From NCBI RefSeq assembly GCF_015714725.1, contig NZ_WBKM01000291.1:1-64000 (forward strand): DNA of 64,000 nucleotides. The letters are read 5' to 3'. Of the stretch, positions 5,094 through 32,858 are shown in pieces. The stretch's first letter is position 1; every line of letters begins with the position of its first letter. Below the pieces are notes generated by a model that saw only the letters and a list, made by a program, of their open reading frames with translations, had not been told where the DNA came from and did not search any database. Source of the stretch: Nostoc sp. WHI (GTDB lineage: Bacteria > Cyanobacteriota > Cyanobacteriia > Cyanobacteriales > Nostocaceae). The translations under genes and the position numbers were made by a program.

Positions 5094-5619
5094 ATTTACT
5101 TTTCCTTAAACAGCAGGAAGAGAAAGTTCAAAGTGCATAAGTTCCCACTTTGGCTTCGATAGATAAATTTCCTTTTTAGAAAAACTTACATCAATTTGTT
5201 TGCTGCTTCTCACATTAGAGAGAGTTTATTAAATCCAAAGAAGTATTTATATTAAGAGTTGATTAACAGACCTCCTATACAAGTACGGTTACTTATATAT
5301 GTGGGTTACGATTCCTTTAACCTGATATTCAATCTAACTATGTGTAAAACTTCCAGGTTGCTTACTAATCGCTAATTTGGGAGCAAAACCAAATCTTCTG
5401 GTACGCTAAACAGTGGTTCTGATTTATTGTTACAAAATTTCATATTTTATAAAAGTTGTTTCTCAATTTTGAGATCACCATCAAATCACCCACGCAACAT
5501 ATCTTATTAAAAAATAATAAGATTTTCAGGCATAATAAATTCTGGTCTATTGGAAGCTTTTGTCCTCAACCAGTTCTTGTAATACAACCCAATTTACTAC
5601 ACCGACTTGCAAATGTTAC
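5094..5619. other. Intergenic region with leader of the terpene cyclase gene
   Basis: This spacer lies between a gene start (5093) and the 3' end of the leftward phosphatase gene (5620). Apart from the promoter at 5229-5300, I see only AT-rich sequence. No ORF or RNA gene is supportable. The predicted leader from promoter to cyclase ATG is about 145 nt. Confidence 0.5.
5229..5300 (-). promoter_or_regulatory. Conserved promoter with 26-bp palindrome, copy 3 (upstream of terpene cyclase)
   Basis: Read on the minus strand, an inverted repeat ATATATAAGT-N6-ACTTGTATAG (5300-5275) is followed after 20 nt by TAATAT and 8 nt later by CTTTGGATTTAA (5240-5229). The same elements occur at identical spacing at 6913-6984 (plus) and 32114-32185 (minus). 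The palindrome centre would lie at about -45 to -50 relative to a start downstream of TAATAT, a position typical for an activator site. One half-site here is less perfect than in the other copies. The regulator is unknown. Confidence 0.6.
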
Positions 5620-6591
5620 TTAATGAGCTATTTGCTGCACAGCCAGCATGGTAATATCATCAAACTGTGGTGCTTGATCAATATGATTGAACAAATTAGT
5701 TTTGATGCGCTCCAGTAAGTCAGATGGTGAAGAAACAGGCTGCTCCAGCAGTGATAGCAGTCGTTTAAGAGTAAAAAACTCACCTTTAGGGGCGCGAGCT
5801 TCTGTTACCCCGTCGGTATAGCCAATCAAGATGTCACCCTGTTCTAGCTGAACCTGGTGTATTTTAAACTTCGCATCCGTCATCATTCCCACAGCTGGCC
5901 CGGTAGATTTAAGACTCTCCTTTACTCCTTGGGAGTTGATAATAAAGAGAGGTTCATGTCCAGCATTAATGTAGGTCAGCGAGTTTGTTAAGGGATGCAG
6001 CACTCCAAAAAAGAGCGTGGCAAACATACCCATCTGAGCATGATTTTGGGTAATGTAGTTGTTTGTAAGTTCCACAGCTTTGAGTGCATTAATTTGGTCT
6101 AAACAAGTTGTAGAAAGTGTCTCAATTTCACAACAAAATAATTCGTCGTTGCTAACTATAGACAATCCGTATAAGCTAGTTTGTCCAGAAAAAACTCGGA
6201 TTAAGCTGCGGAACAAAGCCATAAATAATGCAGCACCCACACCCTTATCGCAAACATCAGCAATCACCAACCCCAAGTAGTCACCCGGAAGCATGAAAAC
6301 GTCGTAGAAGTCACCGGCTACCTGACGAGCTGGATAGAAACACGTTGCAATCTGGAAATTGGGCAATTTTGGTATTTCAGTGGGCAGAAAATCTATTTGA
6401 ATCTGCCTGCCTTTTTCTAGTTCATCGTCAAGCGCTTTTTTGGCCTTGGTAAGTTGATTGGTTTGCTGATTTATCAGACGTGTTGCTAGTTTATGAATGT
6501 GAGCTTGAGCTACTAATAATTGATGTATATCAATACCTTTGCCAAAATAAGAGCCAACAAAAATTTGGGCAAAAATGGCAAAATGACCCAT
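5620..6591 (-). CDS. SpoIIE/PP2C-type serine phosphatase
   Basis: A 323-residue protein. An N-terminal helical/coiled-coil part (about 25-75, rich in K/E/Q) leads into a PP2C-like SpoIIE domain (about 80-320). Metal-binding motifs are visible: AGDFYDVF, LVIADVCDKG, GYTDGVTEAR and FDDITML. Members dephosphorylate STAS-domain anti-anti-sigma proteins in partner-switching circuits. Two STAS proteins (16470, 19197) and an RsbW-like kinase (19909) occur in the rightward cluster. No receiver, GAF or PAS input domain is present in this frame, so the sensory input is either the short N-terminal region or a partner protein. The start at 6591 is the first ATG; the N-terminal ten residues are hydrophobic. 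Confidence 0.85.
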   Translation of the reverse strand: MGHFAIFAQIFVGSYFGKGIDIHQLLVAQAHIHKLATRLINQQTNQLTKAKKALDDELEKGRQIQIDFLPTEIPKLPNFQIATCFYPARQVAGDFYDVFMLPGDYLGLVIADVCDKGVGAALFMALFRSLIRVFSGQTSLYGLSIVSNDELFCCEIETLSTTCLDQINALKAVELTNNYITQNHAQMGMFATLFFGVLHPLTNSLTYINAGHEPLFIINSQGVKESLKSTGPAVGMMTDAKFKIHQVQLEQGDILIGYTDGVTEARAPKGEFFTLKRLLSLLEQPVSSPSDLLERIKTNLFNHIDQAPQFDDITMLAVQQIAH

Positions 6592-7372
6592 ACATAAGCG
6601 TTTAGCTTATAAGGTAGCTTGGAATATCAAACCCTTGATACTACGGACAATACGTTAAAAAACCTTGTGGGAAACCTTGAAGGAATTTTTAGGACTTATT
6701 GTTTTTGCCAAGCCTCAGAGAAAAGGGAGTTCAGATATCAACTCACCCTCGTAAATTGGCAAAGGTATTGTAAAGTCAGATAGTAATGCTTTCTTGCCTA
6801 ACATACTCTTAAAAAGAGCAATGTATGTCAGGATATTTTAATATAATTTTCTTAATCAAGAAATAATCTAAAGTTAAACCAGAGTTATCCAAGATTTAAA
6901 TATTTTGTAAAACTATACAAGTCGGCTCACTTGTATAGATAAGCTCATAAGTAATCTTTAATAGAACTGCACCTTTGGATTTAAGCAACGAACCGTAAAT
7001 TAAACATAAGACGAATCGAGGTTAACTGTGCTAGATACTTCTCAAAGGTTCTCGGCTTGGTAATCCTTAGCTTAACAAGCCAAGAAGGTGTTTAGACGGG
7101 CACATAGATTATTTTTCTATGCTTCATCTAAGCATATCAAGTTAAGCGTTAAAGTCTGCATTCCAAGGCACTCACTGATGCTTTGAAAAATACCATGAAA
7201 TAACTAATTAACCAAGACTTTTATCGCCACTGCTTTAGCCGAGTAGAGCTAGCGTATTGCAGCTTGGTACGTGTGGTTTGTGGTTGGACTTTGAAGTCTG
7301 AAGTTAACTGGATAGCAGTGAGTACTGCTTGCCAAAGTTTTAATCAAATTTGCCATTTGAGAGGACGAAAGT
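6592..7372. other. Divergent intergenic region upstream of phosphatase and VOC genes
   Basis: A 781-bp AT-rich spacer. Bases 6913-7026 form the promoter element homologous to the phnD upstream region. Downstream of it, up to 7372, lies a leader of about 380 nt with no ORF I can support. A weak inverted repeat (GGCTTG near 7054, CAAGCC near 7077) lies in this leader. No RNA gene is recognised. Confidence 0.5.
6913..6984 (+). promoter_or_regulatory. Conserved promoter with 26-bp palindrome, copy 1 (upstream of VOC gene)
   Basis: A perfect inverted repeat CTATACAAGT-N6-ACTTGTATAG (6913-6938) is followed by 20 nt, TAATAG (6959-6964), 8 nt and CTTTGGATTTAA (6973-6984). The spacing equals that of the copies at 5229-5300 and 32114-32185. 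Homology to the phnD copy extends to about 7026, covering about 114 nt with roughly 17 mismatches and one gap by eye. It points rightward to the gene at 7373. An activator-dependent promoter is the simplest reading. Confidence 0.7.
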
Positions 7373-8122
7373 ATGGCTACATTACAAAAAGCTCACGCTG
7401 TTGAACAAAAAGTTCCTTCTGCTCTAAGCAAAGATTTGAGGGGGGTTCATCATATAGGTCTCACCGTTGAGGATATGGGAAAAGCCCTTGAATTTTACAC
7501 TGAAGTATTAGGGGGAAAAATCATCATTCCCGAAATTGGTCTTGCTGGTGAGGTCATGCACAATACTCTGCTTCAAAAAGAGGAGATTGAAGCGATAGAA
7601 AAAGGAGTTGATCCAAAAAGCATTGGTATACCGAACCTAAGAGATGGTGAGGAGAATTTAGACATTTACTTTATTCAGTTTGATAACGTTGTCCTGGAAC
7701 TTCTACAATATAGAGATGCTTCAGCACAACCTAATGGCTCAGTTGCTTTTCCGGCGAAAAATCCTTATTCTAGCCCTGCTTTTGTAAATTCAATGCACAT
7801 CTCCTTTTATTTAAAAGATGATGTGAATGTTGATGAGTTTGTAAAAAATTTAGAAGCAGAGTGTCAAAAGCGTGGGATGGATCAGGTTCGGTGTAACCGC
7901 ATCGTTCGTCTTAAATCAGAAGAAGAAAGGAAAAACGCTAATCTTGAGTCCAATTCGTGCAAACTATTTGACCCTTCCTTCGGAGATTTTGAAGGATGGA
8001 CATTAGTTTACTTAAAAGGGCCTAACGGGGAGCAACTGGAATTTAATCAGGTGCTTCATAAAGCTAAAGTTCTTTTTGAAACTGCACAAGAGAATTTTCA
8101 AAAAGATAGGGTTGAAGTATAG
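7373..8122 (+). CDS. VOC-superfamily (glyoxalase/dioxygenase-fold) protein
   Basis: A 249-residue protein with two betaalphabetabetabeta halves. The first begins VHHIGLTVEDMGKALEFYTEVLGG (residues about 25-48). The second includes MHISFYL near 143 and GEQLEFNQV near 228. The four expected metal ligands of the VOC fold are therefore visible: H26/27, a Glu in VVLELLQY, the His in MHISF and the Glu in QLEFNQ. Such proteins include glyoxalases, extradiol dioxygenases and isomerases; which chemistry applies is not readable. An AGAGGACG ribosome-binding site precedes the ATG. It is the first gene of the rightward cluster, behind the conserved promoter at 6913-6984. Confidence 0.75.
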   Translation: MATLQKAHAVEQKVPSALSKDLRGVHHIGLTVEDMGKALEFYTEVLGGKIIIPEIGLAGEVMHNTLLQKEEIEAIEKGVDPKSIGIPNLRDGEENLDIYFIQFDNVVLELLQYRDASAQPNGSVAFPAKNPYSSPAFVNSMHISFYLKDDVNVDEFVKNLEAECQKRGMDQVRCNRIVRLKSEEERKNANLESNSCKLFDPSFGDFEGWTLVYLKGPNGEQLEFNQVLHKAKVLFETAQENFQKDRVEV

Positions 8123-8222
8123 AACTTGTTCGCTAGTAAATCTATGCGATCGCTTCTAACCTATGCATCAATGATTTGCATTTACCAAATTTTTACTTTA
8201 TAACAAACAGGAGCTAACTATC

Positions 8223-8789
8223 ATGCGCCAGCGAGTCAACTACTACAAGGAATTATCTGCTGACTATTCCAAACCTGGTCTAATTTCTAATGATTTAAAA
8301 GCAAAGCTTATTCAACAATCTGAAGAATTAATCACCAAAAAAGAAGCTACCTTGCCACAAATTGGATCTGATTACCCAGCAGAAAAAATAGAAGAAGAAA
8401 ATAAAGATTGGTGGCCTACTCATTGTGAGGCATTGAGACAAGGACGAGGCGACTTGCTAACAGGTGAATATCGTGATGATCTGGTTTATTTATGCCAAGA
8501 TGGACACTATTTTGGTTTGAAGGAACAACAAGAGCGAGAGATACATTGGTGGGCATTAATTGCACAACCAGGAGTCACCATGACCTGGCCAATTGTCATG
8601 TTTCATCACGAACATGTCTACTTTGAATGGAAGTGTTTAGATGATGAGACTAACGAAACTATTGCTAAGGGAAACGTGACCTTTGTTCGGCGTGGTCACA
8701 GAGGTGCTGTTTACTTAAAAACTGAGCAGTTGACCTTTTATCGTGACGTTTACGCACCTGATGAACTCGTAAGATTGATCAAAATCTAA
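8223..8789 (+). CDS. NTF2/SnoaL-like fold protein
   Basis: A 188-residue protein. The C-terminal 120 residues (from about WWPTHCEALRQGRGDLLTGEY) have the pattern of a SnoaL-like polyketide-cyclase/NTF2 fold: an initial helix, a beta-rich cone and conserved aromatic residues (HYFGLKEQ, IHWWALIAQP, MFHHEHVYFEW). Family members act as cyclases, isomerases, hydrolases or binding proteins. AGGAG lies 9 nt upstream of the ATG. It follows the VOC gene by 100 bp and is probably co-transcribed. A catalytic role cannot be assigned. The pair of histidines in FHHEH is a candidate active-site feature. Confidence 0.55.
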   Translation: MRQRVNYYKELSADYSKPGLISNDLKAKLIQQSEELITKKEATLPQIGSDYPAEKIEEENKDWWPTHCEALRQGRGDLLTGEYRDDLVYLCQDGHYFGLKEQQEREIHWWALIAQPGVTMTWPIVMFHHEHVYFEWKCLDDETNETIAKGNVTFVRRGHRGAVYLKTEQLTFYRDVYAPDELVRLIKI

Positions 8790-8921
8790 GCTACAGCCCC
8801 ACTCAAGGCTTCTGTCTTTATACTGTACCGATATCATCCGCAGTTTTTGGACGATTTACTCTACAACTGCGGGTGTAAATCGGCAAGGTTTAACTATATT
8901 AATAAAGGTAGCTAAGACGAT

Positions 8922-9572
8922 ATGACAATTACAACTAAAGGCAAAATTGGTGTACTCATTGCAGAGTATTTTGGTGAAGTTGAGTATCAACAATTTAACT
9001 ATTTTTTTCCTAAGCATGGATATAAGATCGAATACATCTCTAATCTTTTGGATCAGGATAAACTCACCTTCAAAGGTCAGGAATATATCTCAGAAGCAAC
9101 AGTTACAATTGATTTCAAGGATATTGAACCGACTGATTACAACGGCATTATCCTCATTGGTGGGTATGCAATGGATCGCCTACGATATCAAGTTACTCCT
9201 GCGCCTGGTCAACCCAACCAGTCCCCAGCTATAAAGTTTCTCCGTAAAGTTGTGACTGCAATGGATGCCAATAAATTGAAAGTTGGCACTATTTGCCATA
9301 GCCTGTGGTTGTTTTGCGCTGCTCCAGAACTTTTAAAGGGTCGCAAGGTTACCTGCATTCATAACATCATTGATGACGTAAGAAATGCTGGAGGAATCGT
9401 TATGTATGAGAATGGACAAACCCAAGCTACTTATGTTGATGCTAGCCTGATATCGGCACGACATCCTGGGGTTATTGATGAATTTCTAAGAGTATTTTTA
9501 AAGGAGCTTGAAAAGAGGGATGACTTAATGACAGCAGCTAGATCAAGACAGAGTTTACCAATACCCTCTTAA
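8922..9572 (+). CDS. DJ-1/PfpI-family protein (first paralog)
   Basis: A 216-residue protein of the DJ-1/PfpI class I glutamine-amidotransferase-like fold. The nucleophile elbow is clear (GTICHSLWLF, C125-H126) after the LIGGYAMDRLRY strand-turn. A Glu near residue 15-17 (LIAEYFGEVEYQ) matches the DJ-1 glutamate position. Known members are glyoxalase III/deglycases, chaperones, proteases and isonitrile hydratases. It is about 65% similar by eye to the paralog at 10265-10894. Both flank a sugar-phosphate isomerase-like gene. A role in handling a reactive carbonyl or amide intermediate is possible, but this is inference. Confidence 0.8.
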   Translation: MTITTKGKIGVLIAEYFGEVEYQQFNYFFPKHGYKIEYISNLLDQDKLTFKGQEYISEATVTIDFKDIEPTDYNGIILIGGYAMDRLRYQVTPAPGQPNQSPAIKFLRKVVTAMDANKLKVGTICHSLWLFCAAPELLKGRKVTCIHNIIDDVRNAGGIVMYENGQTQATYVDASLISARHPGVIDEFLRVFLKELEKRDDLMTAARSRQSLPIPS

Positions 9573-9600
9573 ACTATTTATTACGAGGAAAAAAGAGTGC

Positions 9601-10257
9601 ATGGCACAAATATATCAAAGCCCTTTTGACAATACAACTGTTATTACAACCACCCTCAAGCAAAACCTTACTCAGGCGATTGAATTAGTTTTAACAGAGA
9701 ACAAACAAGTACTAGAAAAAATCAGTTACTCTGCTATTGAACTATTCATGGGAGAAATTACGGGTGCAGAAAGAATATTTGTCACTGGAGAAGGCCGTAG
9801 CGGCTTAGTTATTCGTATGGTAGCGATGCGGCTGATACATTTAGGATATCAAATTAATGTTCTAAGTGATACTACTATATTATCGCTAAAAAAAAGCGAT
9901 CTACTCATTGCTTTTTCTGGTTCTGGTAGCACAAGTAGTGTGACAACGATGGCTGCAAAAGTTAAAAACATAGGTGCACACCTTGTTGTTGTAACTACTC
10001 AGCCAGAATCTGTTTTAGGAAAAATGGCTGATGTCTTGATCGAGATTAGAGCAGCAGCTAAACAAAGCAACAGTAATCAGCAGTCAAAACAGTTTAGTGA
10101 TTCTTTATTCGAGCAGTCTACACTGTTTTTGTTTGATGCAATATTTCATGTTTTGGCTGATAACTGGAACAATAGTGCAGACAGGATGTTGGCATTAGAC
10201 ACAAACATTATTCAATGTTTGTGTCACTTTTTAAAAATACAAAATACAACAACTTAG
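9601..10257 (+). CDS. hxlB: 6-phospho-3-hexuloisomerase-like SIS-domain protein
   Basis: A 218-residue single SIS-domain protein. The SIS phosphosugar-binding features are visible: VTGEGRSGLVIRMVAMRL (about 60-78), AFSGSGSTSSV (about 103-113) and VVVTTQPESVLGKMADV (about 127-143). The length and the GEGRSG start match bacterial and archaeal 6-phospho-3-hexuloisomerases (PHI/HxlB) of the ribulose-monophosphate pathway. No 3-hexulose-6-phosphate synthase (HxlA) is present in the window. The enzyme may therefore isomerise a different sugar phosphate in this cluster. It starts 29 bp after the first DJ-1 gene and ends 8 bp before the second, so the three are almost certainly co-transcribed. The PHI family call is firm; the substrate is open. 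Confidence 0.75.
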   Translation: MAQIYQSPFDNTTVITTTLKQNLTQAIELVLTENKQVLEKISYSAIELFMGEITGAERIFVTGEGRSGLVIRMVAMRLIHLGYQINVLSDTTILSLKKSDLLIAFSGSGSTSSVTTMAAKVKNIGAHLVVVTTQPESVLGKMADVLIEIRAAAKQSNSNQQSKQFSDSLFEQSTLFLFDAIFHVLADNWNNSADRMLALDTNIIQCLCHFLKIQNTTT

Positions 10258-10264
10258 GAACGTT

Positions 10265-10894
10265 ATGACAACCCAAACAAAAGGCAAAATTGGTGTACTC
10301 ATTGAAGAACACTTCGATGAAAGTGAATATCAACGCTTCAACATTTTTTTTCCAGAACATGGATATGAAGTAGAATATATTTCTAATCTTTGGAATCAAG
10401 AAAAACTCATTTTCAAGGGAAATGACCATACAGCAGAAGTAACCGTGACAGTAGATGTTAACAATATCAATCTGGCTGATTACAAAGGTATTCTTCTAAT
10501 TGGTGGGTATGCAATGGATAGACTGCGTTATCAAGTCCATCCTAAACCTGGCCAACCTAACCAATCCCCAGCAGTAGAATTTCTCCGCAAAGCTGTGAAA
10601 GCGATGGATACTGATAATTTGAAGATTGGCACAATTTGTCATAGTCTGTGGCTGTTTTGTGCAGATCCAAAACTTATAAAAGGTCGTAAGGTTACTTGCG
10701 CTCACAACATTATTTGTGATGTCGAAAATGCTGGAGGAATTGTTGTATACGAGGGGAATCAGACCCCAGGCGTTTATATTGATGGCAACCTTATCTCGTC
10801 ACAACACCCAGGAGTCGTCGAAGAATTTATGCAGGCATTCTTAGAGAAAATTGAAAATAAAAAACAGTTAACTACCCCCGCTATAGTAGGTTGA
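10265..10894 (+). CDS. DJ-1/PfpI-family protein (second paralog)
   Basis: A 209-residue paralog of 8922-9572. It has the same opening (KGKIGVLIEEHF), the GGYAMDRLRYQV loop and the nucleophile elbow GTICHSLWLFC. Both copies keep the Cys-His pair, so neither appears decayed. An AGGAACGTT ribosome-binding region overlaps the stop of the preceding SIS gene. The N- and C-terminal tails differ most between paralogs, suggesting an old duplication, perhaps a heteromer or two related substrates. Confidence 0.8.
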   Translation: MTTQTKGKIGVLIEEHFDESEYQRFNIFFPEHGYEVEYISNLWNQEKLIFKGNDHTAEVTVTVDVNNINLADYKGILLIGGYAMDRLRYQVHPKPGQPNQSPAVEFLRKAVKAMDTDNLKIGTICHSLWLFCADPKLIKGRKVTCAHNIICDVENAGGIVVYEGNQTPGVYIDGNLISSQHPGVVEEFMQAFLEKIENKKQLTTPAIVG

Positions 10895-10917
10895 GGCAGT
10901 AAAGCTCAAGCAGAAAA

Positions 10918-10989
10918 TTCAAAGATAAAGTGGCTGATGGAGTAGGAAAAACAACTATCTTATAAAATTAAGTGAACTTTATCTTTGAA
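10918..10989. repeat. 14-bp perfect inverted repeat with 44-nt loop
   Basis: TTCAAAGATAAAGT (10918-10931) is repeated in reverse complement at 10976-10989. It lies in the 259-bp gap between the second DJ-1 gene and the AGE epimerase gene. It could be a weak terminator or a processing structure. Nothing else is recognised in the gap. Confidence 0.45.
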
Positions 10990-11153
10990 CCTATGCCATT
11001 ATTGGGACAAAATGTTACCTTTGTTTGCTTTAACGACCAGGGCAAACGCACGTGATTTCTGAAATCATTGCGTGAACAAGGATATTGATGGAAAAAGGGT
11101 TCCTTTAATGATTTGAAAGTGAAATTTACTAAAAGACTAAAGAACATTTAGTT

Positions 11154-12995
11154 ATGGGACACATGCATTTCCCTTATTCAGATTTAATCGCTGGGTATGT
11201 TACTTACTACGACCCGGAGAATGACATTTTTGGTATTAAAACATCAGATGGTAGAGAATTCGATGCGGCATTGAGCCACATGACTTATGCCAAACTGGTG
11301 CAGAACTTAGAAGAACCTTACCCAGATGCGACTGGTGCAATGAGGTCAATGCTTGTGCCAGGTCGATATTTGTTTAGCTATGGAATTTTCTATCCCGATA
11401 GTTCTAAATTTGAAGCCAAACAAATTGTATTTGTCGGTAGAACGGAAAACGATTATGTTTTTGAGAAACCCCACTGGTGGGTAAATCAGATTCAATCGGT
11501 AGCAAGTTTTTACCTCAAAGCTCAGTTCGGGGAAGGAAAAATTGACTACCGCAACTATCGCACCGATCTGACTTTAGCCGGTGCCAAACAAACCTATAAT
11601 TACCGCCAAGAAACTGATACCATTTCGCGGATGGTGTATGGATTTGCCACTGCTTATATGTTGACTGGCGAAGATAAGTTTCTAGAAGCTGCCGAAAAAG
11701 GTAGCGAATATCTGCGTGAACATATGCGGTTTGTGGATTTAGATGAAGGGATTGTTTATTGGTATCATGGCATTGATGTGCAGAGCGATCGCTCCGTCTC
11801 GCCCTTCGGGCTGCGCGAACAGAAAATCTTTGCTTCTGAATTTGGTGATGACTATTACGCTATCCCAGCTTATGAGCAGATTTATGCTCTAGCCGGGCCG
11901 ATGCAAACTTACCGAATTACGGGCGATCCGCGCATTTTGAGCGACGCTGAATTAACAGTCAAGCTATTTGACGACTTTTTTCTCGATAAAAGTGAGCATG
12001 GCGGCTACTTCTCGCATATTGACCCCGTAACCTTAGACTCTCATAGCGATTCTTTAGGTAACAACAAAGCGAAAAAGAACTGGAATTCAGTTGGCGACCA
12101 TGCTCCAGCTTATTTGATTAATCTTTGGTTGGCTACCGGAAATCCGAAATATGCCAAGATGCTGGAGTATACTTTTGATGTGATCGCTAAACGTTTCCCC
12201 GATCCAGAAAATAGCCCCTTTGTTCAAGAACGGTTCCACGAAGATTGGACGGCTGATCCCGGTTGGGGATGGCAGCAAAACCGCGCTGTCATTGGTCACA
12301 ATCTCAAAATTGTCTGGAATCTGATGCGGATGTACAGTCTCAAATCCAAAGACGAGTATATTCAACTAGCAGAAAAAATTGCCGCGATCATGCCCGAAGT
12401 TGGTAGTGACCAACAGCGTGGCGGATGGTACGACGTGGTGGAACGCATTCTCGAACCTGGTCAAACTAATCACCGCTTCGTTTGGCACGATCGCAAAGCT
12501 TGGTGGCAGCAAGAACAAGCTATCTTAGCCTACCTAATCTTGGCAGGTTTACTGAAAAACGACGAATATCTGCGTTTGGCTCGTGAATCGGCTGCTTTTT
12601 ATAACGCTTGGTTTCTGGATAACGAAGATGGTGGTGTTTACTTTAACGTTCTCGCCAATGGTATTCCCTATCTAGTTAGTGGAAATGAGCGGCGCAAAGG
12701 TTCACACTCCATGAGTGCTTATCACTCCACCGAGTTGTGCTATCTGGCGGCTGTCTACACCAATCTCTTGATTCACAAGCATCCGATGGACTTTTACTTT
12801 AAACCTTTACCAGGAGCATTTCCCGATCATCTTCTGCGGGTGTCACCGGATATTTTACCCCCTGGAAGTATCAAGATTGGTGCTTGTGAAATCAATGGGG
12901 AAACTTACACCGACTTTGATGCCGAAAATTTGACAGTGAAGTTACCAGAAACATCAGAACAAATCAAAGTCAAGGTTCGGATTGTCCCTAATTAA
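11154..12995 (+). CDS. AGE-family (N-acylglucosamine 2-epimerase-like) epimerase/isomerase
   Basis: A 613-residue protein. About 110 N-terminal residues form a beta-rich domain (IAGYVTYYDPENDIFGIKTSDGREF) not found in typical 400-residue AGE enzymes. An (alpha/alpha)6-barrel follows from about residue 115 to 560, with recurring helices and AGE-like motifs: YRQETDTISRMVYGFA, GHNLKIVWNLMRM, KAWWQQEQAILAYLIL and GSHSMSAYHSTELCYLA. The family interconverts epimeric or aldo/keto sugars; some members are cellobiose epimerases. A possible catalytic His lies in GHNLK. A short dispersed repeat appears inserted in frame at 11785-11820. The position after a sugar-phosphate isomerase suggests modification of a sugar moiety. 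The exact reaction is unknown. Confidence 0.75.
   Translation: MGHMHFPYSDLIAGYVTYYDPENDIFGIKTSDGREFDAALSHMTYAKLVQNLEEPYPDATGAMRSMLVPGRYLFSYGIFYPDSSKFEAKQIVFVGRTENDYVFEKPHWWVNQIQSVASFYLKAQFGEGKIDYRNYRTDLTLAGAKQTYNYRQETDTISRMVYGFATAYMLTGEDKFLEAAEKGSEYLREHMRFVDLDEGIVYWYHGIDVQSDRSVSPFGLREQKIFASEFGDDYYAIPAYEQIYALAGPMQTYRITGDPRILSDAELTVKLFDDFFLDKSEHGGYFSHIDPVTLDSHSDSLGNNKAKKNWNSVGDHAPAYLINLWLATGNPKYAKMLEYTFDVIAKRFPDPENSPFVQERFHEDWTADPGWGWQQNRAVIGHNLKIVWNLMRMYSLKSKDEYIQLAEKIAAIMPEVGSDQQRGGWYDVVERILEPGQTNHRFVWHDRKAWWQQEQAILAYLILAGLLKNDEYLRLARESAAFYNAWFLDNEDGGVYFNVLANGIPYLVSGNERRKGSHSMSAYHSTELCYLAAVYTNLLIHKHPMDFYFKPLPGAFPDHLLRVSPDILPPGSIKIGACEINGETYTDFDAENLTVKLPETSEQIKVKVRIVPN
11785..11820. repeat. 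Short dispersed repeat inside the AGE gene
   Basis: A GCGATCGC HIP1 octamer is followed by a GC-rich hairpin-like run, TCTCGCCCTTCGGGCTGCG. This resembles Nostocales interspersed palindromes. It stays in frame and encodes SDRSVSPFGLRE between two ordinary AGE segments. Confidence 0.45.
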
Positions 12996-24536: not shown

Positions 24537-25268
24537 TTAATCCTTAAATAGATTACCTAAATAGGTAGCCTGTAAAGGAGTTTCTTTAACAGTTTCACCA
24601 ATTTTTTCAACGCGATAGGCTTTGGCATTGGGGCGAGAACTGACGATTTTTTCCAGGCGATCGCCTACAAAATATAGACCAACTCCGTCATCAGCTGCAT
24701 AACCATCATCTAGTAACTCTTCAGATAACAGCCGATGATAAGCTAGTCTTCTTTCTGGCTCTCTATCATAGTGAGGACAGTGGCTACCTTTTAGGAAACC
24801 GAGACACTTTACTGGGTTGTTCAGCGAGCCTGGAGCATAGGCACTAATTCCTGCTTCAAACCAGCACATCGAACCCGCACTCAAGCCACAAAGAATAATG
24901 CCTTTTTCCCAAGCTTCTCTGAGAATTTTATCTAGTTCCCATTCTCGCCAAAGCGCAATTAAATTTTTGGGGCTGCCTCCTCCTACATAAATAATGTTTT
25001 GCTCTAGCACAAAAGCTTTAAGGTCGGTAGCTGGTGGGTTAAACAACGACAAATGAGAGGGAGTGCAGGATAATTTTCCAAAGGTTGAATAGAACTCGAC
25101 GATGTAGTGATCAGAATCACCGCTAGCTGTCGGGACAAAGCAAACTCGCGGCTTTTGTTTGTCCACCAGTCCCAAAATGTATTTGTCTAACAGAAAGTTT
25201 TTGGGTTCCATTGAAAAGCCGCCTCCACCCATTGCAAATATTTGTTTGAGGGGAAGATTGTTACTCAT
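24537..25268 (-). CDS. Peptidase S51 (PepE/cyanophycinase-like) within the phn operon
   Basis: About 243 residues from the ATG at 25268; a TTG 15 bp upstream also fits. It shows the class I glutamine-amidotransferase-like S51 fold: QIFAMGGGGFS, IIYVGGGSPKNLIALWR and nucleophile elbow CGLSAGSMCWF (Ser in G-x-S-A-G). S51 enzymes cleave Asp-Xaa dipeptides or beta-aspartyl bonds. It is placed between phnJ (31 bp) and phnK (29 bp), in the same direction, so it is transcribed with them. It is not a known C-P lyase component; a link to N-aspartyl or amide phosphonates is speculative. The family call is firm. Confidence 0.8.
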   Translation of the reverse strand: MSNNLPLKQIFAMGGGGFSMEPKNFLLDKYILGLVDKQKPRVCFVPTASGDSDHYIVEFYSTFGKLSCTPSHLSLFNPPATDLKAFVLEQNIIYVGGGSPKNLIALWREWELDKILREAWEKGIILCGLSAGSMCWFEAGISAYAPGSLNNPVKCLGFLKGSHCPHYDREPERRLAYHRLLSEELLDDGYAADDGVGLYFVGDRLEKIVSSRPNAKAYRVEKIGETVKETPLQATYLGNLFKD

Positions 25269-25299
25269 ATTGAGAGTTTGCAACTGAAGTTGATGTTCT

Positions 25300-26256: not shown

Positions 26257-27350
26257 TTCTCATTTTTGTAATTATTTTGAGTAGTACGAAGCCTATCTAA
26301 GTCAGATTGAAAGGTGACATAGTGCGGCATTTTGTAGTGGGAAGCAAAACCCATTGACTCAATGCCGTCGATATGCAGAAGGACAAATTCGGGGTCTTCA
26401 GAGGGGTTACTAGGGCCTTGTTTTATGCCTTTTTGGAGGGCGCGGTCTAAAATAGCCATAGCGATCGCTTTTACTTCGTTATGCCCAAAACAAGCTCCAT
26501 ATCCTAACCCAAAGGTAGGTTTACCTTTATTTTCATCCAGTTCATACATAGCGATGACTTCACATTCCGTCATCAGTACCTCTCCAATTTCAATTAATTC
26601 CCCTGTGATGGGATGTGGTAATTGAACTGGCAGATAACCGACTCGTAACTCGGCAACAGTGGGGTGAATATCGCCGTAGCCGCGCATATTAGAATAGGCG
26701 ATGCTTAAGATAGAACCTGTCTCCGCACGTGCCATTGTTGCTAATGCCGCAGAACGTGAAACTGGGAAAATTAGGGGTTCCCGTGTAATATCAAACGGTG
26801 GTTGATAACATTCAATAATTGGTGGTAATAGCCCTTCCTGACGTAAGCTATCTAATACCTTAGGAAAGGTAGTCGGTAATATTTCTTCTGGTGTTTCTTT
26901 TAGCCAAGTTTTAGCTATTTTACGAAATTGCTCGGGCGATTCATCTAGCAGTTCAAAGCGAAATAAACGCTGTAAATAATCCGATGTCGGCCCCAACATC
27001 TGCCCACCAGGAATATCCTTAAATGCGGCAGAAATGCGACGGATAAGACGCATGCTTTTGCCATTATGCAAAGGAGTTTCACCTAATCGAGGACGAGTTG
27101 AACGATAAGCCCTCAAATAGAAAGCGGCTTCTAGAGTATCACCAGCACTTTGCTTAATTGCTAGTGAGGCTAAATCTGGATGATACAAGCCTCCTTCTGA
27201 TAAAACTCGACTATGTAAAAAGTGCAATTGATGACGAATTGTTTCTAAAGATAGGGGAGACTCGGTGCTATTTCGTGTTCGCAAGTAGTCTAGTAATTTA
27301 ATTGCTTCTTCGATAGCCGTTTCGCCGCCTTTAATCGCAATGTAACCCAT
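26253..27350 (-). CDS. phnI: C-P lyase core subunit PhnI
   Basis: 365 residues, matching the usual length. It begins MGYIAIKGGETAIEEA and contains VARAETGSI-like MARAETGSILSIAYSNMRGYGDIHPTVAELRVG and EVLMTECEVIAMYEL. PhnI is the nucleosidase/transferase that links phosphonate to ribose triphosphate with PhnG, PhnH and PhnL. Translationally coupled to phnJ. Confidence 0.95.
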   Translation of the reverse strand: MGYIAIKGGETAIEEAIKLLDYLRTRNSTESPLSLETIRHQLHFLHSRVLSEGGLYHPDLASLAIKQSAGDTLEAAFYLRAYRSTRPRLGETPLHNGKSMRLIRRISAAFKDIPGGQMLGPTSDYLQRLFRFELLDESPEQFRKIAKTWLKETPEEILPTTFPKVLDSLRQEGLLPPIIECYQPPFDITREPLIFPVSRSAALATMARAETGSILSIAYSNMRGYGDIHPTVAELRVGYLPVQLPHPITGELIEIGEVLMTECEVIAMYELDENKGKPTFGLGYGACFGHNEVKAIAMAILDRALQKGIKQGPSNPSEDPEFVLLHIDGIESMGFASHYKMPHYVTFQSDLDRLRTTQNNYKNEK

Positions 27351-27391
27351 GTCAGAATTTTTAAGAAGAATGTAGAAGTCAGAATTCAGTA

Positions 27392-27985
27392 TCAGTTAAT
27401 GAAGGTTTGAGTATCAGTGAAATCATGCAGTTTGATTTGAGTAGTTCTCGGTAATGCCATAATACAAGTTGAATCTACCAGAATCATGTCTACTCCCAAG
27501 GGAAAATTTTCTACCCAATTTTCACGAAGCACAAACCATAATGGATGAAACCCAGCGAGATGAATAAGGCGCGTTTTTTTGATGCCAGCCCCTGATAATT
27601 GAAATGATATATTTCCGAGATTAAGTGCTGTTGCTTGAAGTATTAAAGTAGCTCCTTTTTCTGGGTTAGACAATTCTCCTAAGTTAAGAGATAAATTCAT
27701 GTTAGGCGGATTAGTAGCATCTTTAATTACAAATTTTGCAGTTTCTTCACAGGCTATAGGTGCTTGGAGGAGATAGCGATCGCTCTTATCTACCAACCCA
27801 TCTTGATCACTCCAACTTACGGTTTTATCGAGCAGCGTTGCTAATACTCCCACCAAAGCTGAAGACCTTCCTAAATACTGGCTTAAATCAGCAATTTCTC
27901 CCGGCAAACTCATACAATGCAACAAATTACGAAAAATTTTTTGTTGACTTTCTCCTTGCCAGATAGCTTCAATCTTCAGCATCAT
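27392..27985 (-). CDS. phnH: C-P lyase core subunit PhnH
   Basis: 197 residues. Features are the MSLPGEIADL segment, TLLDKTVSWSD and the C-terminal GVDMILVDSTCIMALPRTT. PhnH is a structural partner in the PhnGHI(J) complex with a PLP-transferase-like fold. Its start lies inside the phnG 3' end (17-bp overlap). Gene order G-H-I-J is as in E. coli. Confidence 0.92.
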   Translation of the reverse strand: MMLKIEAIWQGESQQKIFRNLLHCMSLPGEIADLSQYLGRSSALVGVLATLLDKTVSWSDQDGLVDKSDRYLLQAPIACEETAKFVIKDATNPPNMNLSLNLGELSNPEKGATLILQATALNLGNISFQLSGAGIKKTRLIHLAGFHPLWFVLRENWVENFPLGVDMILVDSTCIMALPRTTQIKLHDFTDTQTFIN

Positions 27986-28436
27986 CTTTCTCCTGGCTGA
28001 GTAAAGAAAAATTTACTTTAGTTTTTGCCAACATTGCACCTTGTTGTAGTTCTTCCCAAGCACGTTTTTCTATGCCTTGTTGAATTAAATCTGCAACTCT
28101 TTGCCAACCAGGTAATTGATGAGCTATCACCGCATCACATATAGCTAAAGCTACAGCTAAGTCAGCAGAATCACTCATTACTTGAGCTGCACCTTCAAAG
28201 TTTTCATTGCTTGAATTGGTGAGTTCTATCCATGCACTTGCTATAGGAATTTCTCCTAAGTAGTATGGTTCATGAAACACCCCATCTTCCATTTGCAGCA
28301 AACTCAAGCCAGCTTGGGGTAAAGATTTATAGTTTACTTGCCAACCAGAAATTAAATCTTCTGCTAAAGATTGCAGCTTTTCAGGTGAATAAGCAGTTAA
28401 AGCTTTAATCCAAAGGCTCCGAGAAGGAATTGTCAT
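27969..28436 (-). CDS. phnG: C-P lyase core subunit PhnG
   Basis: 155 residues, the expected size. It shows MLQMEDGVFHEPYYLGEIPIASAWIEL (as QMEDGVFHEPYYLGE) and SDSADLAVALAICDAVI, typical of PhnG. It follows the second phnE gene by 78 bp, a gap that contains a heptamer repeat. Confidence 0.92.
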   Translation of the reverse strand: MTIPSRSLWIKALTAYSPEKLQSLAEDLISGWQVNYKSLPQAGLSLLQMEDGVFHEPYYLGEIPIASAWIELTNSSNENFEGAAQVMSDSADLAVALAICDAVIAHQLPGWQRVADLIQQGIEKRAWEELQQGAMLAKTKVNFSLLSQEKDDAED

Positions 28437-28441
28437 TCTAC

Positions 28442-28470
28442 TTTGGATTTTGGATTTTAGATTTTGGATT
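28442..28470. repeat. Heptanucleotide tandem repeat (four copies)
   Basis: TTTGGAT, TTTGGAT, TTTAGAT, TTTGGAT lie between phnE and phnG. The same type occurs at 16821-16860. Confidence 0.65.
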
Positions 28471-28514
28471 GTCCCGACGACTTTCAGTCGCTTGTTCTGA
28501 GAGCTTTGTTTTGG

Positions 28515-29309
28515 TCATGAAAGTTTACTTCTTAACAAAGCGGAAAGGTAATCAATGGCAACGATTGTAATAATAATGATCAGAATTAAAGCACCGGCTT
28601 GGTCATATTGGAAAAAGCGCAAATTGGCGTTTAACTCTAAACCAATTCCTCCCGCTCCTACCAATCCTAATACTGTTGCAACTCTGACATTTCGGTCAAA
28701 AATGTAAAGCGTGTAACCAACTACCTCTTGAAGAATTGAAGGCCAAGCTGCAAACATAACGACCTGAAGAAAGTTAGCACCAGTAGCATTAATTGCTTCA
28801 TAAATTCCTGGATTAACTCGCTCCATACTCTCAGAAAAAAATTTTGTTAAGAATCCTGATGTATGTAACCCTAAAGCTAAAACTCCAGGTAAAGGCCCAA
28901 GCCCTAAAGCAGCTACAAATATTAGGGCTAATACTAGATCTGGTAATGCCAATAAGAAAGTCAGTAACTCTCGCACGGTGCGATAAATCAAGGGATGAGG
29001 AGAAATATTTTTGGCAGCAAGTGGGGTAAAGATAACACTAATCACAAAAGCTAACACTGTTCCCCAAAGTGCGATCGCTAAAGTTTGTCCCATCAATCCT
29101 AGATACTTAACCAAATCAGTGAAATTAGGCGATCGATACCGTCCTAGATATTCAAAAATATCGCTAAAACCCCAGAGTAAAGTTGTAAATGAAATCTCCA
29201 AATGGACAATTACTAATCCGACAAAAATTAACAACAATCCCAACCACAGGAAAACTAAATTTGCAGGCTTTTTCGGCAATGGGGGGAGTTGAGAAGTTTT
29301 AAATACCAT
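28515..29309 (-). CDS. phnE: Phosphonate ABC transporter permease PhnE (second copy)
   Basis: A 264-residue MetI-type permease with about six membrane segments. The cytoplasmic-loop region is TLLAALPDLVLALIF...-like (LLALPDLVLALIFVAALGLGPLPGVLAL), followed by FFSESMERVNPGIYEAINATGA, the ATPase-contact loop, and VLGLVGAGGIGLEL. It lies 2 bp downstream of the other phnE. The two probably form a heterodimeric channel. Confidence 0.9.
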   Translation of the reverse strand: MVFKTSQLPPLPKKPANLVFLWLGLLLIFVGLVIVHLEISFTTLLWGFSDIFEYLGRYRSPNFTDLVKYLGLMGQTLAIALWGTVLAFVISVIFTPLAAKNISPHPLIYRTVRELLTFLLALPDLVLALIFVAALGLGPLPGVLALGLHTSGFLTKFFSESMERVNPGIYEAINATGANFLQVVMFAAWPSILQEVVGYTLYIFDRNVRVATVLGLVGAGGIGLELNANLRFFQYDQAGALILIIIITIVAIDYLSALLRSKLS

Positions 29310-29311
29310 CT

Positions 29312-30115
29312 TTAAATCACCCGCGATCGTAATTGGTTAGATAATCTATCTAGGACGGTTACAGCGAGATAAACTGACACTATAATCATCATTAATTGAC
29401 TGTAGTTAAACAGTCGAATAGATGACACTAACTCATATCCAATTCCTCCAGCACCTACCAAACCAACAATTGTTGCTGAACGCACATTATGGTCAAGAAT
29501 GTAGAGAAGTGTGCCAATTAAATCGGGGAAAGCTTGAGGAAGCATTGCAAAAGTTATTAACTGTAACCAACTCGCACCTGTTGATATTACCCCTTCAATA
29601 GACTTGGGATCTACCACCTCAATACTTTCAGCAAAAAACTTTGCCATAAAGCCAGTGGTAACAAAAGTAAGTGCCATTATTCCAGGTAATGCACCCAATC
29701 CTACAGCTGAGACAAATACCAATGCCCATACCACTTCTGGTAAAGCACGCATTAGAGAAAGTAAGTTGCGGCTGATGTGGTAAACGACCGGATTGGGACT
29801 ACTATTGCGAGCTGCAAGTATTCCTAAAGGTAGGCTCAGAATCAGAGAAAAAGTTGTGCTTAAAAAGGCAATTTCTAAAGTTTCCAACATTTTTGTTCCG
29901 AGAGTTGGAAAATAATCCCAATCAGGAACAGCGAATAACTGTCGGATAAATTCAAACAATTTTCCTGTAGATTGAAAAATCCTCACTAAATCCACTTCCA
30001 CAATAGTAGCGTTACTGCCAAGAGCTAGCAAAATAACTAACACTAAAGCAACCAGTGAAAGAGGAGGTAGACCATCAGGACTTGGCCAACGCCATTTCCA
30101 TGTTAAAGTTTTCAT
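29312..30115 (-). CDS. phnE: Phosphonate ABC transporter permease PhnE (first copy)
   Basis: A 267-residue permease with the same layout as its neighbour: an N-terminal membrane segment, RALPEVVWALVFVSAVGLGALPGIMAL, FFAESIEVVDPKSIEGVISTGA and IVGLVGAGGIGYEL. Its start overlaps the phnC 3' end by 41 bp, indicating translational coupling. Confidence 0.9.
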   Translation of the reverse strand: MKTLTWKWRWPSPDGLPPLSLVALVLVILLALGSNATIVEVDLVRIFQSTGKLFEFIRQLFAVPDWDYFPTLGTKMLETLEIAFLSTTFSLILSLPLGILAARNSSPNPVVYHISRNLLSLMRALPEVVWALVFVSAVGLGALPGIMALTFVTTGFMAKFFAESIEVVDPKSIEGVISTGASWLQLITFAMLPQAFPDLIGTLLYILDHNVRSATIVGLVGAGGIGYELVSSIRLFNYSQLMMIIVSVYLAVTVLDRLSNQLRSRVI

Positions 30116-30866
30116 CTAAACTTCCATCCGCACGTCGATAAATGGTTTCCAAAATCTCTTGTTGATGAAATAATTCCCCAGCTGTACCGTCAAAGACGAC
30201 GTGACCCTGATTAATGCCAATAATCCGCTCGGCAAACTGTATAGCCAAGCCAACTTGGTGTAAGCTAGCAACAACAGTAACCCCATCTTTTTGGCAAATT
30301 CCTTGCAGCAATTTCATAATTTCTTCGGAGGTTACTGGGTCGAGACTCGCTACAGGTTCATCTGCTAAAATTACTGCTGGTTGTTGAGCTAAGACACGAG
30401 CGATCGCTACTCGCTGCTGCTGACCTCCAGACAATCTACTAGCACGATTCCAGGCTTTTTCTGTCAAATCTACCCGCGCTAATGCCCAATGGGCTATTTC
30501 ATAGTCTTTTTTTGGGAACAAGTAAACTAAGCTTTCCCACCAAGAACGGTGATAAAGTCTTCCAGTGAGGACGTTTATCATTACGTTTAACCGACCCACC
30601 AGATTAAATTGTTGAAAGACCATGCCAACTTGAGCGCGAAGGCGACGTAAATTTTCTGTTGTAAGTTGACAATTGGCAATGATAATTTCACCGCTACTAG
30701 GGGTTTCTAAACCATTCAAAAGACGCAAAAGTGTAGATTTACCTGCACCTGAAGGCCCTAAAATAACTGTGAATTCACCTGAATTGATTGTCAGTGTTGT
30801 AGGATGTAGAGCTTGAAAGCCATTTTCATAGCGTTTACTAACTTGTTTAATTTGTATCAAAGACAT
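30075..30866 (-). CDS. phnC: Phosphonate ABC transporter ATPase PhnC
   Basis: About 263 residues from the ATG at 30866; an upstream TTG adds six residues. It has Walker A GPSGAGKST, Q-loop GMVFQQFNLV, signature LSGGQQQRVAIARV, Walker B VILADEPVASLD and switch SLHQ. It energises phosphonate import with PhnD and the two PhnE proteins. Confidence 0.93.
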   Translation of the reverse strand: MSLIQIKQVSKRYENGFQALHPTTLTINSGEFTVILGPSGAGKSTLLRLLNGLETPSSGEIIIANCQLTTENLRRLRAQVGMVFQQFNLVGRLNVMINVLTGRLYHRSWWESLVYLFPKKDYEIAHWALARVDLTEKAWNRASRLSGGQQQRVAIARVLAQQPAVILADEPVASLDPVTSEEIMKLLQGICQKDGVTVVASLHQVGLAIQFAERIIGINQGHVVFDGTAGELFHQQEILETIYRRADGSLDENFNMEMALAKS

Positions 30867-30983
30867 AAGAACTTCAAAATTCAAAATGTTTGCGTAGCGT
30901 CTTGTAAAGAAGAAATGTCATCCTTGAGCATGGTTTGATTAAGCAAGTGAAACTTAATAATTTTGTCCACTTGCTTAAGGAAA

Positions 30984-31913
30984 TTACTTAAGTAATTGTT
31001 GGCGTCCTAGTCCCAAATCCTTAACCATATCTCGGATTGGTTGATAGTCACTAGGAATAGCAGAATCGTAACGCAGAAGATCACCGTAGCCAGTTACCTT
31101 AATTTCTTTGTGGGCATTTAAAATAGCTTCCCGAATTTTATTTTTCGTGGCTGCATCCAAGTCATTCCGGTATGTTAGAGGAGAACCAGGTAAGGGGTTA
31201 GAAGAAAGCAGAATACGATTGCTTTGTTTGGTAATTAACCCTTGAGAAAGCATCTTTTCGTAGGTGATGTCGTTGTCAGCTGCTGCATCTACTGTTTTGT
31301 TTTTAACTGCTAGTTCAGCAGCATCATGAGAACCAGCATAAGTCAGTTTACCGAAAAACTCTTGAGGCATCTTACCCGTGCTTTTCTTAACTATATAGCT
31401 GGGTACTAATGCTCCAGAAGTAGAAGCTGGATAGACAAAAGCAACATTTTTACCTTTTAAATCTTTCAGAGATTTGGCTGGAGAATCACCAGGCACAACA
31501 AATATACTCTTGTATGTAGATTGACCATTCTTACGAACACCTACTGCAAAAGCTTCTGCCCCTGCTTCTTGCTGGGCTAGCACATAAGATAACGGCCCAA
31601 ACCAAGCGACATCTACCCGGTCTTTTCTCATAGCTTCAATCACACCTGCATAGTCAGTAGCAGTGAAGACTTTGACAGAGCGACCAAGTTTTTTCTCCAA
31701 ATAGACTCGCATTGGCTCAAATTTTTGCACCATTTCTTGGTTATTTTCAGCAGGAATTAATCCCAAAACAATGGGACGGTTTTGAGCCGAAGCCACTGGT
31801 AAGTTGAATTGACCTTGCAGCAACGAGCTTATTGCTTGATGGCTGACCTGACTCCCAACTGCTAAAGAGGATAGCAAGACTGCAATGGTAGTTATATATT
31901 TTCTGCGAAACAT
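30984..31913 (-). CDS. phnD: Phosphonate-binding protein PhnD
   Basis: About 309 residues from the ATG at 31913, preceded by TTTGGAG. A signal peptide (MFRRKYITTIAVLLSSLAVG) is followed by a periplasmic binding domain. It shows LGLIPAENNQEMVQKFEPM near residue 48, DVAWFGPLSYVLAQQEAGAEAF and YPASTSGALVPSYI, typical of PhnD/PtxB. It is the first gene of the leftward operon, behind the conserved promoter at 32114-32185. The ligand (phosphonate, phosphite or phosphate ester) cannot be read. Confidence 0.92.
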   Translation of the reverse strand: MFRRKYITTIAVLLSSLAVGSQVSHQAISSLLQGQFNLPVASAQNRPIVLGLIPAENNQEMVQKFEPMRVYLEKKLGRSVKVFTATDYAGVIEAMRKDRVDVAWFGPLSYVLAQQEAGAEAFAVGVRKNGQSTYKSIFVVPGDSPAKSLKDLKGKNVAFVYPASTSGALVPSYIVKKSTGKMPQEFFGKLTYAGSHDAAELAVKNKTVDAAADNDITYEKMLSQGLITKQSNRILLSSNPLPGSPLTYRNDLDAATKNKIREAILNAHKEIKVTGYGDLLRYDSAIPSDYQPIRDMVKDLGLGRQQLLK

Positions 31914-32858
31914 GATTAAAATCTCCAAATTAAGTGAAATAGTTTAAGTTAACTAAGGCATTGATTTTTTGGCTAAACCCATCAAATCTGGCGCTTATCT
32001 ACTATCGAATTAAGCTTGTTAAGTCAGAGGTCATACTATGGAGCAGGAACCGTTGATAACCATGCGAAAGTTGTTACCTCGATTTGTCTTATGTTCAATC
32101 TACAGTTCGTTTCTTAAATTCAAAGGGGCAGTTATATTAAAAGTTACTTATGAGCTGAACTATACAAGCTACTCTACTTGTATAGAGTGAATTGGCTTGT
32201 AAACATAACGATTCGAGTAGCTACGCTACAGTTAAGGAAATTTATCTGTTGAGGCGGGCAGAGAGGGGGAGAAAAAAGGCTTAACTGAAGCGTATTGGCT
32301 TAAAAATGGTGTTTCCTAGCCTGATCTTTGACTAAATTTTAAGCATTATTGCTTATTGACAAATGGTTAATGACCTAATCTTGTGATCGATGATAAAGTT
32401 CCGATTTGATTTTTGAAAACATACTGAGATTGAAAAGCCCGATTTATCTAAAATCTTATTCAAAACTTTTTAAGATATTAACCAAAATTTAATTTATTTT
32501 TATAAATTTGTTAATAATTTATTGTTAATCTCAGCATAAATCTAAATAGATAATAACATTTGAATTTTAGAGCTTTATGTATCCTTTATCCAAAATAGGA
32601 TTCAAAAGTTCTAAAGGTATCTTTTGGGAACCATTTTAGATGAAATAGCAGTATAAGCCCTAAAAAGCAAAGTTTTCAGTTTGATTTTAATTCATTTATT
32701 AGCATAAATGAATCCGTAGAAACCGTTTTAGTCAATAAACACAACAGTTACGCTCCAGATCCTGTCAACCATTAGAAGAATATCTGATAAAAAGAGTAGA
32801 TCATAAAAAGTACAGGTAACTAAGAAAAGTTTGATTATTGAATTAGAATGGTATCTTC
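31914..32858. other. Divergent phnD-phnF intergenic region
   Basis: 945 bp. Bases 32073-32185 hold the promoter element homologous to that of the VOC gene. The rest (32190-32858) is very AT-rich, with no ORF or RNA gene I can support. The phnF start has only a weak ribosome-binding site. The length is unusual for a divergent pair and may hide small RNAs. Confidence 0.5.
32114..32185 (-). promoter_or_regulatory. Conserved promoter with 26-bp palindrome, copy 2 (upstream of phnD)
   Basis: On the minus strand CTATACAAGT-N6-GCTTGTATAG (32185-32160; one mismatch between the arms) is followed by 20 nt, TAATAT (32139-32134), 8 nt and CTTTGAATTTAA (32125-32114). Order and spacing are identical to 6913-6984 and 5229-5300. 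It lies about 200 bp upstream of phnD. Confidence 0.7.

Follow-up and report, generated by a model that had tools for sequence, protein, structure and literature searches.

A rigid composite promoter-like module precedes phosphonate-utilization, enzyme-cluster and diterpenoid genes in Nostoc sp. WHI and some other cyanobacteria

In some cyanobacterial species the genes for phosphonate breakdown (phn) are under Pho boxes (PMC1906773), and at the ordinary phn locus of Nodularia the phn genes are mostly up under phosphorus limitation, while phnF is not (PMC9846622). At such ordinary cyanobacterial loci, phosphate starvation and a phosphonate-type signal may be read together. Regulation of phn operons by PhnF is of the HutC kind, for which the canonical operator is given as GTMTAKAC (PMC4494728). 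The subject of this work is a promoter-like module that occurs three times in a stretch of 64,000 nt of Nostoc sp. WHI (contig NZ_WBKM01000291.1; henceforth, the window), which is part of a strain assembly (G000) of 8,562,728 bases in 390 contigs. The three copies stand before a diterpene cyclase-like gene, before a cluster of enzyme genes beginning with a VOC family protein, and before a phn operon. Cyanobacterial diterpenoid clusters of the tolypodiol type reportedly contain a prenyltransferase, a terpene cyclase and oxygenases, as the window does; unlike the present case, no phosphonate-linked promoter is described for them at the level of abstracts. Neither this promoter nor a phosphonate-terpenoid regulon is described in the titles and abstract openings of the papers returned by searches of the open PMC literature, subscription papers being mostly outside that scope.

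A sequence-only reading of the window had described one order of elements at three sites (26-bp palindrome, 20 nt, TAATAT or TAATAG, 8 nt, CTTTGRATTTAA), each site pointing at the first gene of its unit. Direct reading and alignment bear this out at the coordinates and strands of Table 1. The first open reading frames (ORFs) are that of the cyclase-like gene, 7373-8122(+) and 30984-31928(-), and they start 207, 460 and 257 nt from the palindrome starts of copies 1, 2 and 3, respectively, a 46-aa ORF also lying before 7373-8122(+). No ORF of at least 100 aa overlaps any of the three sites. The palindrome at 5300 departs from the consensus in two left-arm bases, and that at 32185 in one right-arm base; the perfect palindrome occurs once in the whole strain assembly. 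Between sites 6913 and 32185 the identity is 85% over 110 bp, and the conserved unit exceeds the 72 bp first described. It measures about 90–110 bp and comprises the palindrome, CATAA...TTAATA, CTTTGGATTTAA and TAnnnT. In 13 non-redundant sites, the well-kept columns are 1–9 and 16–25 (arms), 31–37 (CTCATAA), 43–53 (TTTTAATAnAA), 60–71 (CTTTGGATTTAA), 74–76 (AAC) and 83–88 (TAAATT-like).

The module was searched for with a profile (R1; 99 nt, sequence only) trained on 16 sites, the window sites included, in two overlapping genome sets, one of 217 from the family and one of 388 sampled from the order. Strong matches were obtained in G000 (3), G116 (3), G147 (1), G082 (3), G193 (8), G083 (3) and G419 (4), with one additional module each in G083 (E = 8.4e-4) and G419 (2.4e-4). 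The total is 27 modules in seven genomes of five genera; G419 belongs to another family, in which it is the only one of 19 genomes with modules. The 11 modules outside the training of the profile had E-values from 3.8e-16 to 8.4e-4. In the assembly of the window strain, searched under stricter filters, R1 returned just the three window sites at E ≤ 0.01. An independent matrix, for which 10 sites of G082 and G193 were used, two genera other than that of the window, ranked these sites first to third in the window, with scores of 109.2, 97.8 and 73.8; the score that came next was 0.7, for the 6913 palindrome read on its other strand, and 100 simulated windows gave scores of up to 1.3. In the seven module genomes, palindromes with at most two mismatches all lie inside modules (21/21), while those with three mismatches do so in 3 of 34 cases, the remaining 31 comparing with 29 for a reversed control pattern. 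No further full copy of the module turned up in these seven genomes. The scan thus did not find the motif at many unrelated places, an outcome that leaves the regulon idea unrefuted. Thirteen more family genomes have one partial R1 match each (E from 3e-4 to 9.3e-3). Such matches outnumber the prediction from rough E-values and many order genomes show similar ones; they are taken as chance. The individually inspected case was that of G256 alone (L084:5872, -), where a palindrome-like TTATACAAGT-N6-ACTTATACAA, with an R1 E-value of 6.6e-5, has unrelated sequence behind it.

In the seven genomes, phn, VOC, porin and terpenoid units are preceded by the rigid blocks of the module, namely the palindrome, CATAAnTAnnnTTTAATA, CTTTGGATTTAA and TAnnnT. 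The target of the module is phnD in seven cases (one in each genome), the VOC operon in six (G000, G116, G082, G193, G083 and G419), an OprB-SLH porin in four (G082, G193 twice, and G083) and a diterpene cyclase in three (G000, G116 and G193). DXS, metK, MocA, SpoIIE and an MFS-phn unit are targets of one module each, and two modules are without an assigned target: one in G083 (C109), with the contig ending about 0.95 kb away, and one in G419 (C87:253), where the target would be off the contig. An ORF of at least 240 aa starts 125–591 nt from the palindrome start in 24 of the 27 modules. All eight modules of G193 lie within 53 kb. The one before DXS is followed, on the same strand after DXS, by genes for a terpene synthase, a P450, a polyprenyl synthetase, a cytidylate kinase, IspG, DXR and IspH, and others stand before a MocA-type oxidoreductase and before S-adenosylmethionine synthetase (metK) and MTHFR, so that extra methylerythritol phosphate pathway and methyl-donor genes are among the targets in this genome. 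One of the G193 porin copies is of uncertain assignment: its distance to the porin is 1.2 kb, and two ORFs (103 and 112 aa) overlap it. In G419, modules precede SpoIIE and an MFS transporter gene with phnG, H, I and J behind it, the latter module overlapping an opposite-strand ORF of 110 aa. The cyclase module of G116 is on a separate contig (C3), on which DXR and DXS genes follow at some distance. In G193 the cyclase gene (L022:6427-8121) and a phnM homologue (8173-9369) have the same orientation and are 52 bases apart, the homologue coming second; a common operon of phosphonate and terpenoid genes is therefore probable there. As a separate observation, the G193 stretch with DXS, DXR, IspG, IspH, polyprenyl synthetase and cytidylate kinase behind one module spans L021:607-12718.

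The regulon joining phosphonate use with a terpenoid/tailoring pathway, as proposed from the window, is supported by the occurrence of the same module before the same kinds of unit across genera, and on these comparisons a real regulon of phosphonate and terpenoid genes appears almost certain. Two observations count against it. The modules are of common descent, which means that copies and columns cannot be counted as independent, and Microseira wollei has the core VOC operon with the module absent and no phn gene in the 14 kb examined. Because of the latter case, the tie between VOC and phn is not universal; among the 217 family genomes, VOC proteins of at least 74% identity are found in five (G000, G116, G082, G193 and G083). 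That descent would be all the copies share, the promoter having been recently copied by recombination or as a repeat with no common regulator implied, is very unlikely. The similarity between sites 6913 and 32185 does extend past the blocks first described, but in the 13 non-redundant sites the blocks are kept while intervening bases and flanks vary, the copies persist in five genera including one of another family, and the modules precede genes, 24 of 27 lying within 591 nt of a long ORF. Side observations on the Microseira locus are that GATCTAGACA, resembling the PhnF operator of ordinary loci, stands about 30 nt before the start codon of the VOC operon (L178:3477-3483), and that similar strings occur elsewhere in the same locus.

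The position of the -10 element was considered from the conservation of the columns. In TAnnnT (columns 83–88), T, A and T are invariant in the 13 sites of the first set; over 22 modules they are kept in 17, 20 and 20, respectively, the rows of G419 being shifted by one base. TAATAT has a T as its sixth base in 5 of the 22 modules. As TAnnnT is kept and the sixth base of TAATAT is not, the -10 was placed at columns 83–88, with the start near column 95. It is thus likely that the -10 is the downstream TAnnnT, 37 columns beyond TAATAT; the start would then be about 95 nt from the palindrome start, the palindrome would be centred near -83, and the implied leaders in the window would be of about 112, 365 and 162 nt. 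The sequence-only reading had taken TAATAT as the -10 and the palindrome as the site of a class II activator. For an activator of this class (CRP/FNR- or LuxR-type), the palindrome would be expected to overlap the -35, about 42 bp before the start (the criterion for CRP/FNR), and both the position and the symmetry of the palindrome fit if TAATAT is the -10; moreover, the TTAA of that block is strongly kept. However, conservation does not support this picture, TAATAT ending in T in few modules whereas TAnnnT is kept, and the palindrome would come near -83 and not near -45. Besides, the only DNA-binding regulators among 60 cluster proteins scanned with Pfam are of the GntR/UTRA kind, the scan being limited to the cluster. 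A class II activator is therefore regarded as unlikely.

The rows of G419 have one base fewer between the TTAATA and CTTTG blocks, while the distance from ATTTAA to TAnnnT is the same, the spacing ATTTAA-N11-TAnnnT being fixed. This deletion pattern suggests that the module is made of two halves, each rigid in itself, of which the upstream one is regulatory and the other is the core promoter. The core half without palindrome (columns 58–98) was also seen upstream of metK in G356 and G279, at L082:6741-6781 (+) and L083:7051-7091 (-), which agrees with the two halves; metK is a module target in G193 too. A general metK element was tried as a candidate and rejected: columns 41–98 match upstream of metK in G356 (4.5e-6) and G279 (5e-5), of one genus, and among 30 metK loci examined (match in 117/120 genomes) only that of G279 has it.

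The fixed spacing of the core half could also be read by an alternative sigma factor, freed by the partner-switch set (SpoIIE, two STAS proteins and HATPase) that is part of the VOC operons of G000, G116, G082, G193, G083, G419 and Microseira, and whose SpoIIE has its own module in G419. This use of the CTTTGGATTTAA/TAnnnT half is quite unlikely, since no sigma gene is among the 60 cluster proteins, the -10 looks of the sigma70 type, the palindrome is left unexplained and Microseira has the set and no module. A cis-acting RNA leader common to the units is extremely unlikely. It could account for the short stretches that phn and VOC leaders share after column 94, but no Rfam family was found in positions 1-35000 of the window, the consensus fold of nine leaders has -0.24 kcal/mol and 7 pairs, and among the single folds of 25 leaders three have z below -2 and none below -2.5.

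Concerning the regulator of the palindrome, PhnF had tentatively been named as the only one visible, and this holds up in the Pfam scan of the cluster proteins. The GntR protein of the window scores 165.9 against the PhnF equivalog TIGR02325 (cut-off 156.8), and GntR and UTRA domains are found in the relatives scanned. Relatives of at least 65% identity are present in all seven module genomes, with 65% in G419 and, in G083, only a 67-aa piece at contig ends; at 52% or more they are present in 8 of the 217 family genomes, namely the six with modules plus G094 and G095. More distant GntR proteins (30–33% identity) accompany the ordinary phn operon, here called type 1. In 12 of the 13 type-1 GntR genes examined, out of 36 places listed, TTGTCTAGACATCTAGAT stands upstream, and the remaining one has CATCTAGACATCTAGATG. 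Between ACTTGTCTAGAC and the module arm ACTTGTATAGAT, 10 of 12 positions agree, a likeness equalled by 0.16% of 5000 shuffled arms. Eight aligned GntR proteins have in common the R-x-T-x-R of the recognition helix. As in the PhnF/HutC regulation of phn operons, a PhnF equivalog is encoded beside the operon and the arm ACTTGTATAG resembles the type-1 ACTTGTCTAG; unlike it, the module has two inverted arms that are separated by 6 bp and located far upstream of the proposed -10, and it stands before several operons instead of one. Several points speak against PhnF as the binder. The palindrome (GT-N6-AC) differs from the canonical GTMTAKAC, and no GTMTAKAC or TCTAGACA-type site was found at any of the three window modules; G094 and G095 have the GntR protein and no full module; and the co-occurrence is confounded, as the gene is in or beside the same cluster and travels with it. 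So, the likeness of operator and arm together with the co-occurrence is suggestive, not proof, and binding of the PhnF-like GntR protein to the palindrome is moderately favoured.

A possible input of SphR was considered by scoring with the Pho boxes of Table 1 in PMC1906773, sought in tandem form (8-bp boxes, 3-bp linkers). Over 22 modules the best mean tandem pair is at columns 33/44 (mean 5.0, the next column having -3.8), and it was reached by 2 of 2000 column permutations. The best spacing among 8–15 is 11, and 10 is second at 2.9. The scores of single modules pull the other way, being modest (2.1 to 11.3) in comparison with the Pho-box-like tandem repeats that stand just before the operator-like string at each of the 13 type-1 GntR genes (13.8 to 17.6). 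In addition, only 2 of the 22 modules score higher than the 95% point of the controls (8.4), in 4 the best forward pair is away from column 33, and in 6 a reverse-strand pair scores higher; the dependence among modules weighs here as well. The 11-bp direct repeat at columns 33/44 fits the box profile of the cyanobacterial Pho regulon, but the boxes of the module have low scores, some 30 bp separate their end from the proposed -10, and the module targets, unlike those of that regulon, include diterpene, DXS, metK and porin genes. SphR input through tandem Pho boxes, formed by the blocks between the palindrome and the -10, remains a tentative proposal, with somewhat less than even chances.

Two kinds of phn operon can be distinguished. 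Relatives of phnJ were found in 47 of the 217 family genomes, 9 with a copy at 77–100% identity (type 2, as in the window) and 40 with a copy at 52–56% (type 1); G000 and G116 have both. The ordinary type-1 Nostocaceae locus resembles that of the window in its C-P (carbon-phosphorus) lyase genes, its PhnF gene and a Pho-box-like repeat beside a likely operator. It differs in the 52–56% identity of PhnJ, in the roughly 30–33% identity of the GntR protein and in having no module in the loci scanned. The window strain itself has a second, ordinary C-P lyase operon (G000:C50; L169:1373-11006), with its own PhnF gene, a Pho-box-like repeat and an GTCTAGAC operator. Type-2 phn without the full module is found in G094, G095, G184 and G190. 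In G094, whose GntR relative has 53% identity, columns 14–56 of the module are recognized upstream of phnD with a score of 18.0 (control maximum 12.3 of 500). The half-module of G095 is weak, 3.4 against a control 99% point of 4.0, which does not help the case for the module, and in G184 and G190 the half-module scores are -4.4 and -5.5 (one strand upstream of phnC).

Table 1. Module copies and surrounding units in the window
Feature	Position	Strand	Remark
Module copy 1	5202..5300	-	palindrome 5275-5300, proposed -10 ~5212-5217
Module copy 2	6913..7011	+	palindrome 6913-6938, proposed -10 ~6996-7001
Module copy 3	32087..32185	-	palindrome 32160-32185, proposed -10 ~32097-32102
Class II diterpene cyclase-like gene (copalyl diphosphate synthase relatives)	3396..5093	-	first gene after copy 1
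UbiA prenyltransferase	2287..3306	-	downstream of cyclase
Rieske oxygenase	1040..2110	-	second, shorter Rieske ORF at 347-958
VOC operon (putative)	7373..20349	+	follows copy 2
SpoIIE-type phosphatase, partner-switch set	5620..6591	-	G419 relative has own module
Type-2 phn operon, D C E E G H I J (S51 peptidase) K L M	21515..31928	-	follows copy 3
PhnF-like GntR/UTRA regulator	32859..33635	+	candidate palindrome binder

The genes after copy 2 probably form a single operon, in the order VOC, 188-aa protein, DJ-1/PfpI, SIS (HxlB), DJ-1/PfpI, AGE epimerase, halogenase (two ORFs), methyltransferase, STAS, isoamylase/GlgX-like, STAS and HATPase. The C-P lyase set phnG-phnM is present with phnCDE: D, C, E, G, H, L and M are above the NCBIfam cut-offs and K below its own, phnI and phnJ are above the Pfam cut-offs, and the second E is recognized only as a transporter permease. 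No break was seen in the stretches read of the phn ORFs and the preceding module. Some other observations concern the state of the neighbouring genes. The halogenase is split into two ORFs (13170-14654) in the window strain and is a single ORF of 488 aa in G116, and the SpoIIE ORF is shorter (323 aa) than that of G116 (540 aa). A 245-bp repeat at 6531-6775 overlaps the SpoIIE ORF start, and Nostoc plasmids carry the same repeat at about 85%. A second PhnF-like GntR gene is a fragment at 21044-21319, with 66% identity to the intact one, longer copies being found in G116 and G147, and there is no porin ORF between this fragment and phnM, unlike in G116. The SIS protein (9601-10257) is above the cut-off for HxlB (6-phospho-3-hexuloisomerase), with 186.2 against 160, and the cluster proteins scanned did not include an HxlA partner.

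Other candidates were tried and rejected. Concerning a repeat or miniature inverted-repeat transposable element, a DNA search of the assembly with site 6913 matched only itself and site 32185. Concerning phosphonate biosynthesis, the PEP-mutase (phosphoenolpyruvate mutase) family is above cut-off in one of the seven module genomes (G193), 6.8 Mb from the cluster, and also matches in 11 of 14 control genomes. Concerning a plasmid origin, the first 25 kb of the window match 13 plasmid records, and the matches are limited to four items: an IS1182-like end, the 245-bp repeat, a 150-bp stretch and an AGE gene at 72.6% in an otherwise different cluster of Nostoc sp. C052. VOC relatives on rhizobial plasmids (46–49%) were viewed at two places, one being an unrelated neighbourhood and the other without annotation.

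Considering all the above, the preferred reading is that of a composite promoter of about 95 bp which defines one regulon, with a mechanism involving a PhnF-like protein and SphR; in this full form, the mechanism included, it has a little better than even chances. The -10, of the sigma70 type, would be TAnnnT at columns 83–88. The PhnF-like GntR protein, whose gene is next to the phn operon, would sense a phosphonate and bind the palindrome, while the 11-bp direct repeat at columns 33 and 44 would act as a tandem Pho box for SphR, phosphate starvation and the phosphonate signal being integrated at the module. The regulon would switch on uptake (OprB-SLH porin and PhnCDE), the C-P lyase and the VOC/AGE/partner-switch operon and, in three genomes, also diterpenoid genes. 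A bolder version is conceivable, albeit doubtful, in which the phosphonate-sensing PhnF relative is the pathway regulator of a natural-product supercluster, and a phosphonate, perhaps from a partner organism, is the cue for diterpenoids and C-P lyase and not mere phosphorus food.

Phosphonate breakdown is usually regarded as plain phosphorus scavenging. Here, one rigid promoter type links it to enzymes of secondary metabolism across genera. This suggests common control of phn, the enzyme cluster and terpenoid genes by a single phosphorus-related signal in some filamentous cyanobacteria. It would seem from this link that a nutrient regulator has been recruited to control terpenoid supply. The module provides a sequence signature for finding more members of the regulon, and it offers a testable inducer for silent terpenoid clusters, namely low phosphate plus a phosphonate.

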